Shown here: one piece after another, positions 30,050 to 49,660 of the stretch | Layout of the letters: each line of letters begins with the position of its first letter | Numbering within the stretch: position 1 is the first letter of the stretch | Source: Caulobacteraceae bacterium | GTDB taxonomy: Bacteria > Pseudomonadota > Alphaproteobacteria > Caulobacterales > Caulobacteraceae | NCBI GenBank assembly: GCA_019695035.1 | Contig: JAIBAU010000013.1 | Span: 1-64,000 of the forward strand | Length of the DNA: 64,000 nt | Direction of reading: 5' to 3' | Notes under the pieces: generated by a model | Told to the model about the DNA's origin: nothing | The model's input: only the letters and a program-made list of their open reading frames with translations | Database searches by the model: none | Translations under genes and position numbers: made by a program

Positions 30050-30125
30050 TGGCAGGAGTGGAGGGACTCGAACCCCCGGCCCTCGGTTTTGGAGACCGAT
30101 GCTCTACCAGCTGAGCTACACTCCT
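30050..30125 (-). tRNA. tRNA-Trp (CCA anticodon)
   Basis: A full cloverleaf reads on the minus strand from 30125. The acceptor stem AGGAGTG pairs with CACTCCT, the D arm contains AGCTCAGCTGGTAGAGC, the anticodon loop CTCCAAA (30088-30094) presents CCA at 30090-30092, the T arm has GGTTCGAGTCC, and the 3' CCA is encoded. The 76-nucleotide gene is directly upstream of secE, as in many proteobacteria. Confidence 0.98.
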
Positions 30126-45886: not shown

Positions 45887-46417
45887 ATGCGCTGCAGCGT
45901 TCTGAGCCTTTGCGTTCTCGTCCTTTCCCTTGGGATCGCGGGTCCCGGCGCGCGCGCCGCGGGCGACCAGCGCGCCCAGACCGCCGGCACGCAGTGCCGG
46001 ACCGGCGAGCGCGTGGCCTGGACGTGCGAGATGGGGCGCAAGGTCCTTTCGGTCTGCCTGCAGGCCAACCGGCAGGCGGCCTACCGCTACGGTCCCCTGG
46101 GCAAGCCCGAGCTGCAGATCGTCTCCAACGGTCGGGACGGGCGGGCTCATCGCAACGAAGTCATGACCTCCGGCGGCGGCAACCAGCAGCATCTGCGTTT
46201 CACCAATGGCGGGTACGAGTACATCGTCTACAGCGGCATCACCGGCCCGCACTTCGATCCCGCCAACCTGCGCTCATCGGGCCTCGTGATTCTGCGAGGC
46301 GAGGAGCAGGTCGCAAGCCGGGAGTGCCCGCGGAACGGCGTCCTGCAACGCATCCCCTACGGCGAAATCCAGTTTATCCGCGCTGACGACAGCAACGCCT
46401 ATGAGGACGAATTCTGA
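45887..46417 (+). CDS. Secreted hypothetical protein
   Basis: This 176-residue protein begins MRCSVLSLCVLVLSLGIAGP with cleavage near ARA-A at residue 24-25. The mature part has four cysteines, two near the start (TQCRTGERVAWTCEMGRK), one in VCLQANRQ and one in SRECPRNG, so disulfides are likely. It is beta-rich and I recognise no domain. It follows the SLC13 gene by 42 bases and may be co-transcribed with it. A structured RNA element on the opposite strand ends just beyond it. Confidence 0.7.
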   Translation: MRCSVLSLCVLVLSLGIAGPGARAAGDQRAQTAGTQCRTGERVAWTCEMGRKVLSVCLQANRQAAYRYGPLGKPELQIVSNGRDGRAHRNEVMTSGGGNQQHLRFTNGGYEYIVYSGITGPHFDPANLRSSGLVILRGEEQVASRECPRNGVLQRIPYGEIQFIRADDSNAYEDEF

Positions 46418-46425
46418 AGGCCCGC

Positions 46426-46567
46426 AAACAAGAAAGGGCCGGTCCTGTGGACCGGCCCTAACTTGGGTTCGGGCGAGCCAGAGGGGCTGACCCGTCGCCA
46501 CCCAACTTGTCGGTGAGCCGCCCCGAAGGCGCTCAACCCGATTCAAATTCGTCGGCGTCGCTACACC
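46426..46567 (-). ncRNA. Candidate small structured RNA with three tandem hairpins and terminator
   Basis: Three contiguous hairpins read on the minus strand. Hairpin 1 (46510-46541) has a TTCG loop. Hairpin 2 (46460-46508) has a perfect 9-base outer stem AAGTTGGGT/ACCCAAGTT and an inner arm with CCTCT in the apical loop. Hairpin 3 (46435-46459), AGGGCCGGTCC/GGACCGGCCCT, is followed by TTTCTTGTTT, a terminator. Upstream, TTGTCT (46596-46601) and TATGTA (46574-46579), spaced 16, form a plausible promoter, predicting about 140 nucleotides. No protein gene explains this terminator. It is not 4.5S, 6S, tmRNA or RNase P RNA as far as I can judge. Confidence 0.6.
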
Positions 46568-46573
46568 TATTGA

Positions 46574-46601
46574 TACATAAGCGTAGCCATTCGCAAGACA
46601 A
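46574..46601 (-). promoter_or_regulatory. Candidate promoter of the small RNA
   Basis: On the minus strand TTGTCT (46596-46601) and TATGTA (46574-46579) are 16 bases apart. The match to consensus is moderate, but the position just before the first hairpin supports it. The rest of the 400-base stretch 46418-46817 holds only the small RNA and the upstream region of the symporter gene. Confidence 0.4.
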
Positions 46602-46817
46602 CTAACTGCGAACAGAAAGTCTAGCCTGCTCCGGCCGTGTGGCGAAGCCCCGGTTTTTCGCCAGGTGCTGAAAATGGGCGCCCCGGAACCGTCCGCCCAT
46701 GACCAGCCCCCGAACGCCAGATCAGCCGATCGCCGCCGGCGGTTCGGGGCGGTTCTAGGCTTCCCTCTCGCGATGGTTGGGCTAGCTTGCCGCCGGGCCG
46801 CTGCGCCGGGGGACTGC

Positions 46818-48083
46818 ATGAACCGCCTGACCTTCTTCATCATCATCGCCATGGTGGCCGGAATCGCGTTCGGTCTCTGGGCCTACGACAACTTCGAAGC
46901 CTACTTCGGCGCCGGGACGAAACCCCAGTTGCTGGACGGCCTGAAGGTCGTGACCGACATGTTCCTGCGGCTGATCAAGATGATCATCGCGCCGCTGGTG
47001 TTCACGACCCTGGTGGCGGGTATCGCCCACATGGAGGATGCGGGGCAGGTCGGCCGTGTCGGCGTCAAGACCATCTTCTGGTTCATCTGCGCCTCGCTGG
47101 CGTCCATCAGCATCGGCCTGGTCATGGTCCACGTGCTTCAGCCGGGCGTCGGGCTTGGCCTGCCCCTGCCCCAGGCCGGCCAGGCGGCCGAGGCGGCCGG
47201 CGCGGTGGACATGGGCAAGTTCACCATCGGCGAATTCATCACGCACGTAATCCCGACCTCGATCATCGACGCCATGGCGAAGAACGAGATCCTGCAGATC
47301 GTGGTTTTCTCCCTGTTCGTGGGAACCGCCGTGGCCTCCCTGGACGATCGCGCGCCCGAGCTGATTAAGGTCGTCGACCAGGGCGCGAAGATCATGCTGA
47401 AGGTCACCAGCTACGTGATGCTGACCGCTCCCATCGCCATCTTCGCCGCCCTGGCCCGCGCGCTCGCCGACCACGGCTACGGCATCGTCGGCACCTATGC
47501 GGCTTTCGTCGGCGGGTTCTACCTGTCGCTGGGAATCCTGTGGGGCGTTCTGCTGGTCGCCGGCTTCCTGTTTGTGGGCTACCGCATCCTCATCCTGATC
47601 GGGCTGATCCGCGAGCCGGTGCTGCTGGCCTTCTCCACCGCCAGTTCCGAGGCGGCCTATCCCAAGACCCTCGAGCTGCTGCAGAGATTCGGGATCTCGC
47701 GACGGGTCGCCAGTTTCGTGCTGCCGCTCGGCTACTCGTTCAACCTGGACGGCTCGATGATGTACTGCAGCTTCGCCACCATCTTCATCGCCCAGGCCTA
47801 TGGCATCCAGATGAGCGTGGCCCAGCAGGTGACCATGCTCCTGCTGCTCATGGTGACGTCCAAAGGCATGGCGGGCGTTCCAAGGGCGAGCCTCGTGGTG
47901 ATCGCGGCGACCCTCGCCTATTTCAATCTTCCTGAAGAGGGCTTGCTGCTCATCCTGGCGGTCGACTTCCTGCTGGACATGGGCCGTTCGGCGACCAACG
48001 TCGTCGGCAACTCGGTCGCTTCCGCCGTGGTGGCGCGCTGGGAAGGCGAGCGTGTGGACAAAGCCCCGGCCCCGGCCGCCTGA
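46818..48083 (+). CDS. Dicarboxylate/amino acid:cation symporter (DAACS family)
   Basis: From the ATG at 46818, after GGGGGA, this protein has 421 residues with the multiple helices and re-entrant loops of the DAACS/SLC1 family. Landmarks are FLRLIKMIIAPLVFTTLVAG, LLAFSTASSEAAYPKTLELL (the serine-rich loop), LPLGYSFNLDGSMMYCSFA and RSATNVVGNSVASAVVA. It takes up C4-dicarboxylates or acidic amino acids with Na+ or H+. An in-frame extension to 46665 lacks family similarity. It stands alone downstream of the small-RNA candidate. Confidence 0.93.
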   Translation: MNRLTFFIIIAMVAGIAFGLWAYDNFEAYFGAGTKPQLLDGLKVVTDMFLRLIKMIIAPLVFTTLVAGIAHMEDAGQVGRVGVKTIFWFICASLASISIGLVMVHVLQPGVGLGLPLPQAGQAAEAAGAVDMGKFTIGEFITHVIPTSIIDAMAKNEILQIVVFSLFVGTAVASLDDRAPELIKVVDQGAKIMLKVTSYVMLTAPIAIFAALARALADHGYGIVGTYAAFVGGFYLSLGILWGVLLVAGFLFVGYRILILIGLIREPVLLAFSTASSEAAYPKTLELLQRFGISRRVASFVLPLGYSFNLDGSMMYCSFATIFIAQAYGIQMSVAQQVTMLLLLMVTSKGMAGVPRASLVVIAATLAYFNLPEEGLLLILAVDFLLDMGRSATNVVGNSVASAVVARWEGERVDKAPAPAA

Positions 48084-48126
48084 CCCGACGCGAGCGGCAG
48101 CGATATGGGCGAAAACATCGGCGCTG

Positions 48127-48155
48127 CCGCCGCGTGCCTCTTGCACCCGCGGCGG
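48127..48155 (+). other. GC-rich hairpin between the symporter and lemA-like genes
   Basis: CCGCCGCG (48127-48134) and CGCGGCGG (48148-48155) form a perfect 8-base stem 44 bases after the symporter stop. There is no T-run, so termination would be Rho-dependent or partial. A second inverted repeat, GGCAGCG/CGCTGCC, overlaps just upstream. Confidence 0.4.
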
Positions 48156-48197
48156 AATAGCGCTGTGACTAATGGCAGCGCTAATCGGAGCCTCACG

Positions 48198-48866
48198 ATG
48201 TTCGCCAAACGCCTCGCCACCCTGGTGGCCGTAATCTTCCTTCCGCTCACCCTCGCCGCCTGCGGGATCAACGACATCCCCACCAAGGAAGAGGCCGCCA
48301 AGGCCAAGTGGGCCGACGTGCAGAGCCAGTACCAGCGCCGCGCCGACCTGGTTCCGAACCTGGTCGAAACGGTGAAGGGCTACGCCGCCCAGGAACGCAC
48401 GGTGCTGAACGAGGTCGTGTCGGCGCGCGCGCGCGCCACCTCGATCAACATCACCTCCGAAACGCCGCCCACCGCCGCTCAGCTCGAGCAGTATCAAAGC
48501 GCCCAGGCTGGGCTGTCGACGGCGCTCGGACGACTGCTGGCCGTGGCCGAAGCCTATCCGGATCTGAAGTCCAACCAGAACTTCCTCGAACTCCAGCACC
48601 AGCTGGAGGGCACCGAGAACCGGATCCAGGTCGCCCGGCAGGACTATAACGAGGCCGTGCGCGCCTATAACACCAGCCTGCGGACCATTCCGTCCTCGTG
48701 GTGGAAGTTCATGTATCCGGAGAGCAAGCCGATGCCGCTGTTCACCGCCAACGCCGCGGCCCAATCGGCTCCGACCGTCGACTTCGGCGCGCCCAATCCC
48801 GGCCAGCCCGCCGTTCCCGGCGCGGCGCCTGGATCCGCGCCGCCGGCGACGGCGCCCGCCCAATGA
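48198..48866 (+). CDS. LemA family lipoprotein
   Basis: From the ATG at 48198 the protein has 222 residues, a lipoprotein signal with the lipobox at Cys22 (LTLAAC), and the LemA domain: YQRRADLVPNLVETVKGYAA, ERTVLNEVVSARARAT, and YNEAVRAYNTSLRTIPSSWW. LemA proteins are helical membrane-anchored proteins that usually partner with TPM-domain proteins and proteases in envelope stress. Its TGA overlaps the ATG of the next, TPM gene (48863-48866). The C-terminal tail is Ala/Pro-rich. Confidence 0.94.
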   Translation: MFAKRLATLVAVIFLPLTLAACGINDIPTKEEAAKAKWADVQSQYQRRADLVPNLVETVKGYAAQERTVLNEVVSARARATSINITSETPPTAAQLEQYQSAQAGLSTALGRLLAVAEAYPDLKSNQNFLELQHQLEGTENRIQVARQDYNEAVRAYNTSLRTIPSSWWKFMYPESKPMPLFTANAAAQSAPTVDFGAPNPGQPAVPGAAPGSAPPATAPAQ

Positions 48867-49660
48867 GACTGAGCCTCGGCGGCGCCGCGCGATGGGCGGC
48901 GCTGGTCTTCCTCTTCCTGGCTGCGGCCGTATCCGGTCCCGCGTTCGCCGATCCGACGTTCCCGCCGCTCACGGGGCGCGTCGTCGACGAGGCGGACATC
49001 CTTCCGCCGGCCGACGAAGCGGCGCTCACCGCCAAGCTCGAGGCGCTCGAGGCGCGGACCACGGACCAGGTGGTGGTGGCGACCGTTCCCTCGTTGCAGG
49101 GCTACGCCATCGAGGAGTTTGGCTACAAGCTCGGCCGGCATTGGCAGATCGGGCAAAAGGGCGCCAACAACGGCATCGTCTTGCTGGTGGCGCCCAACGA
49201 TCGGAAGGTGCGCATCGAGGTCGGCTACGGCCTCGAGGGCGTCATGACCGACGCCTATTCCACCCGGATCATCCAGCAGGACATCCTGCCGCACTTCCGG
49301 GACGGCGACTTTCCGGGCGGCGTCAACGCCGGCGTCGACCGGATCATCGAACAGCTGACCGCCGATCCTGCCGACGCCAAGGCGCGCGCCGACAAGGCCG
49401 CGCAGGCGCCGCGTGACCTCGATCCGGATACCGTAATCTTCATCATCGTGATGCTGCTGGTGTTTGGCCCGCATGTCCTCGTCCTGCTGGGGCTGATGGG
49501 ATTGTTCGGCAAGCGCGGCCGTAGCTGGGCTCGGTCCAGCCACAGTTGGTCCTCCGGCAGCTCGAGCGGTTCGAGCTGGTCCAGCAGCTCGAGCAGCGGC
49601 GGCGGATTTTCCGGGGGCGGCGGATCGTTCGGCGGCGGCGGGTCGTCGGGAGGATGGTGA
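48863..49660 (+). CDS. TPM-domain protein with C-terminal Ser/Gly-rich tail (YgcG-like)
   Basis: From the ATG overlapping the lemA-like stop, the protein has 265 residues. It has a signal peptide (cleaved near FADPTF), a TPM domain with VVDEADILPPADEAALTAKL, QVVVATVPSLQGYAIEEFGY and VRIEVGYGLEGVMTDAYSTR, a transmembrane helix near residue 195-220, and a long Ser/Gly tail ending FGGGGSSGGW. TPM proteins have been reported as acid-phosphatase-like or scaffold domains. It is the second gene of a three-gene LemA-TPM-TPM operon. Confidence 0.93.
   Translation: MRLSLGGAARWAALVFLFLAAAVSGPAFADPTFPPLTGRVVDEADILPPADEAALTAKLEALEARTTDQVVVATVPSLQGYAIEEFGYKLGRHWQIGQKGANNGIVLLVAPNDRKVRIEVGYGLEGVMTDAYSTRIIQQDILPHFRDGDFPGGVNAGVDRIIEQLTADPADAKARADKAAQAPRDLDPDTVIFIIVMLLVFGPHVLVLLGLMGLFGKRGRSWARSSHSWSSGSSSGSSWSSSSSSGGGFSGGGGSFGGGGSSGGW

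Follow-up and report, generated by a model that had tools for sequence, protein, structure and literature searches.

The window analyzed here, a 64,000-nt stretch of a Caulobacteraceae genome (contig JAIBAU010000013.1), contains a gap at 46418-46817 between the gene for a hypothetical secreted protein, which has no Pfam match, and a sodium:dicarboxylate symporter gene. The minus strand of this gap carries a strong intrinsic terminator preceded by a series of hairpins, which we describe as a predicted small RNA gene. The elements of the locus are as follows.

45887-46417, plus strand: hypothetical secreted protein gene, 176 aa, codon score +48, converging on the RNA
46426-46613, minus strand: predicted small RNA gene, ~188 nt, fold -97.8 kcal/mol, z -6.6, both ends predicted
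46426-46465, minus strand: intrinsic terminator, 11-pair stem (46459-46435), loop ACA, tail TTTCTTGTTTG, z -8.2
46470-46494, minus strand: hairpin 2 of the predicted fold, apical loop CCUCU (46484-46480) as candidate seed
46496-46557, minus strand: hairpin 1 of the predicted fold, long interrupted stem with cap GCGCCUUCGGGGC
46560-46587, minus strand: hairpin 0 of the minus-strand fold, 11 continuous pairs including 2 G-U, 6-nt loop
46589-46613, minus strand: hairpin A, 8 pairs and a 9-nt loop, in the fold of 46426-46613
46618-46646, minus strand: candidate promoter by consensus match only, -35 TTCGCC (46646-46641), 17-nt spacer, -10 TAGACT (46623-46618)
46818-48083, plus strand: sodium:dicarboxylate symporter gene (SDF family; PF00375, E 2.6e-110), diverging from the RNA

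The terminator reads AGGGCCGGTCC-ACA-GGACCGGCCCT and then TTTCTTGTTTG on the minus strand, its stem being flanked by a CAAG/CUUG extension, and the stem of hairpin 2 holds a 1x1 internal loop. The region is single copy in the genome and is therefore not a dispersed repeat. A LemA-family gene (48105-49660 and L021) lies 3' of the symporter gene, an order common to the closest relative, G008. A 40% identical paralog of the secreted protein is encoded at L019 (G000:C1:34348-34755, plus strand), and relatives of this protein are rare in the family, being present in four of 149 genomes.

Strand-specific folding and an orphan terminator

The initial annotation described three contiguous perfect or near-perfect hairpins. 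Minus-strand hairpins are present at that place, the 131-nt stretch 46426-46556 folding at -73.0 kcal/mol (z -5.2, matched by 0 of 200 shuffles), but only the terminator stem is perfect, and the count rises from three to five with two more hairpins on the 5' side, at 46587-46560 and 46613-46589, the latter extending partly beyond the interval 46426-46601 first delimited. Much of the structural signal comes from these two omitted hairpins, since hairpins 1 and 2 alone reach a z-score of only -2.1.

The terminator-free part of the region (46467-46613, 147 nt) folds at -68.4 kcal/mol (z -4.55) on the minus strand and at -49.0 kcal/mol (z -1.78) on the plus strand. A z-score as low as -4.55 was found in two of 414 equal-length intergenic strands and in none of 145 coding segments, and the strand difference in z, 2.77, is larger than its 95th-percentile value of 2.20. 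The structure favors the minus strand because seven of the 67 pairs in the predicted fold are G-U, which become A-C on the plus strand. Hairpin 0 folds at -15.8 kcal/mol (z -3.1) on the minus strand and at -8.6 kcal/mol (z -0.95) on the plus strand, the corresponding z-scores of hairpin 1 (46497-46556) being -3.0 and -2.3.

The U-tract reported after the last hairpin is the tail TTTCTTGTTTG of the 11-pair terminator stem (dG -21.5). We scanned 464 kb of the genome, comprising the window and 400 kb from two other contigs, for stem-plus-T-tail sites, calling those with a dG of -18 or lower and a tail score of 2.5 or more strong, and placed them relative to genes called by a crude codon-usage caller trained on the genome itself. 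Of 26 strong terminators, 21 lie just 3' of a gene on their own strand and none is intragenic, which indicates that such sites mark transcript ends in this genome. The remaining five have no same-strand gene, one of them being an artifact of a contig edge, and the site at 46459-46435 (tail score 3.71) is among these five; the closest minus-strand gene end upstream of it is 3.5 kb off, bearing out the earlier statement that no minus-strand protein gene lies nearby. Since strong sites mark transcript ends, the orphan site at 46426 suggests a minus-strand transcript. Orphans do occur (four of the 26 besides the contig-edge case, the 46426 site included). The other three, L093 (G000:C52:156389-156417, plus strand), L088 (G000:C52:59684-59714, minus strand), and L100 (G000:C51:97787-97814, plus strand), have no Rfam match and are possibly further small RNAs or missed genes.

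The terminator might instead act as an insulator that halts stray transcription, or transcription diverging from the symporter promoter region, before it enters the secreted-protein gene in antisense, with the short RNA a functionless by-product. Its position 9 nt from the stop codon of the converging plus-strand gene, the diverging symporter gene upstream of the RNA, and the failure to find conservation of the RNA in 390 family genomes are all consistent with this explanation, which we nonetheless consider unlikely because it leaves the minus-only strong structure of 147 nt before the terminator unaccounted for. Still less probable is that the hairpin at 46420-46474 belongs to the plus-strand gene for the secreted protein, closing its 3' end as a terminator or stability hairpin, and that the minus side carries its T-rich tail by coincidence. 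This hairpin begins 2 nt past the plus-strand stop codon and, as an inverted repeat with 26-nt arms, folds on either strand; on the plus strand, however, the stem is followed by AACTTGGG, which has no T-run, and the terminator scan was positive on the minus strand only. The minus-strand bias of the remaining structure would again be left without an explanation.

Coding potential, promoter, and start

A minus-strand frame of 192 aa (46274-46852) is open across the region, but that it represents a real small protein gene or the decayed remnant of one is very improbable, as its codon score of -15.6 over 193 codons, compared with +48 for the plus-strand gene that it overlaps, marks it as noncoding, it has no Pfam match and only marginal matches in 60 related genomes, and the small frames inside the gap also have negative codon scores.

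The promoter first proposed for the RNA, TTGTCT-16-TATGTA, is not confirmed and is probably wrong. It agrees with seven of 12 consensus positions, no site reaching the limit of nine of 12, and scores 4.07; the best site in its 100-nt stretch, which overlaps it, scores 4.70, a value that 292 of 500 shuffled versions of the stretch also reach. This promoter would also overlap hairpin 0 in part. The best minus-strand sigma70-like site in the region is TTCGCC-17-TAGACT, the -10 element of which reads GCTAGACT with its upstream bases, and its score of 6.37 lies above 5.58, the 95th percentile for random stretches of 160 nt. Hairpin A begins 5 nt past this predicted -10 element, with 4 nt between the site and the hairpin. 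Judged by consensus, transcription would begin at approximately 46613, at the base of the hairpin A stem, and give an RNA of ~188 nt with five hairpins, so that the ~140-nt transcript originally envisaged is probably wrong.

Hairpin A is encoded by a perfect inverted repeat, TTCGCA-N11-TGCGAA (46590-46612), which together with a second repeat, TGGCGAA-N10-TTCGCCA (46640-46663), lies in the promoter interval between the RNA and the symporter gene, and alternatively these repeats may be operator DNA of the diverging symporter gene that mimics RNA hairpins. There is little to recommend this as a full explanation, because it accounts for hairpin A only and because hairpin 0 needs G-U pairs, which are relevant in RNA and not in DNA, although an operator at this position could be compatible with the RNA gene.

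Relatives and known small RNAs

A covariance search and a comparison across Caulobacterales had been suggested as checks. At gathering score, Rfam 15 returned nothing for the whole window but a tRNA at 30053-30125, and hence no family for the region. Searches with blastn in 60 relatives and then in 390 family genomes recovered no homolog of the region, a result that is not decisive given that the genus of the window has no second genome in these sets. The blastn matches all arose by chance: L002 and L003 are rpmB terminators, which are likewise of the GGGCCGGTCC type, and L071, L073, L075, and L004 are stretches of coding DNA or sequence that overlaps genes. The covariance model R1, built from a single sequence, likewise found no homolog in the 390 family genomes and none at the corresponding locus; it gave seven weak matches outside the source genome (E 7e-4 to 5e-3), of which those with clear context are ordinary gene-end terminators. 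Nor did the regions preceding 80 symporter genes on GTDB contigs yield a homolog of the RNA, and two scans of these contigs revealed no genus-mates, the best symporters being 65-71% identical. Relatives commonly have the symporter but not the region upstream of it: the closest relative, with a symporter 74% identical, has only the downstream LemA gene order in common, and none of the few relatives of the secreted protein that were found is beside a symporter gene. With no homolog and no second genome from the genus, the RNA can be called lineage-specific, a description that fits a young functional RNA and a nonfunctional one alike, and its stems have no covariation support.

The initial annotation likened the apical CCUCU of hairpin 2 to the anti-Shine-Dalgarno loops of known alphaproteobacterial regulatory RNAs. 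The loop itself is confirmed, being fully unpaired in the predicted ensemble (probability 1.00), but the likeness is loose, as neither UUUCCUCCCU nor CCUCCUCCC is present and the best small RNA-like Rfam match at relaxed threshold is to RF00519 (alphaR8/MmgR/SisA-D; suhB) at 17.7 bits (E 0.23 in a 321-base search). Members of RF00519 likewise have a hairpin, a C-rich stretch, and a GGGCC...GGCCC terminator with a U-tail. We reject membership of this family because the score falls below its cut-off of 41 bits and because the single-stranded core 10-mer UUUCCUCCCU that defines alphaR8 (PMC12559287) is absent. A genuine RF00519 copy occurs elsewhere in the genome (C27:16020-16097, 57.3 bits), and among the 60 relatives this family is multi-copy in the order, the highest count being 15 matches at E <= 0.1, in G028, and the genome of the window having six.

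The rhizobial cuckoo RNAs SmelA075 and SmelA099, which are anti-Shine-Dalgarno small RNAs, are also built of tandem hairpins with a pyrimidine-rich apical loop, but they have CCUCCUCCC in each hairpin (PMC3927594), whereas the predicted RNA has a single CCUCU loop and no CCUCC anywhere in 46426-46613 on the minus strand. ChvR of Caulobacter crescentus (CCNA_R0100) is likewise intergenic, species-specific, and composed of stem-loops, two of which pair with its target mRNA (PMC6237742); by description rather than by sequence, it is set apart by its length of 84 nt and its different locus (CCNA_00157/recF). GsrN uses an exposed C-rich loop as its seed (PMC5869019), in which it resembles the candidate CCUCU loop. 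GsrN, however, has homologs recovered by BLASTn throughout Caulobacteraceae, usually close to the general stress locus (PMC5869019), in contrast to the predicted RNA with no homolog in 390 family genomes, and here too the distinction is made by description and not by sequence.

Proposed mode of action and significance

With an orphan strong terminator, a fold that favors the minus strand, and no coding signal, a minus-strand small RNA, as first proposed, remains the best-supported reading of the region. Our preferred interpretation, to which we assign a probability of roughly 0.6, is that 46426-46613 on the minus strand is an intergenic small RNA gene, lineage-restricted as far as the data reach, that acts in trans by base pairing through its CCUCU loop. 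The region holds a genuine sequence feature, which is probably a lineage-specific small RNA gene of an ordinary kind. The transcript would fold into its five hairpins and end at the intrinsic terminator (46459-46426), with its ends protected, on the 5' side by the first hairpin and on the 3' side by the terminator stem. It would most likely pair in trans with mRNAs, hairpin 2 presenting its exposed CCUCU loop to G-rich ribosome-binding sites and thereby blocking translation. C-rich loops or single strands serve as seeds in GsrN (PMC5869019) and SisA-D (PMC12559287), both precedents from the same bacterial family. Scored against 441 translation starts, the CCUCU loop gave a mean pairing energy of -12.9 compared with -11.8 (sd 0.9) for shuffled loops, and the two are not separated. 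A more specific proposal, which we offer tentatively and think doubtful, is that the RNA represents an undescribed small RNA family confined to the genus, with a CCUCU seed loop among its five tandem hairpins, which would be transcribed divergently from the symporter gene and target mRNAs for nutrient uptake or others.

The RNA alone would leave the general picture unchanged. Should it be transcribed, a group with few characterized small RNAs (GsrN, ChvR, CrfA, SisA-D, and RusT) gains a regulatory RNA specific to one lineage, and the locus illustrates that orphan strong terminators combined with strand-specific folding can flag small RNA genes that have no homolog at all.
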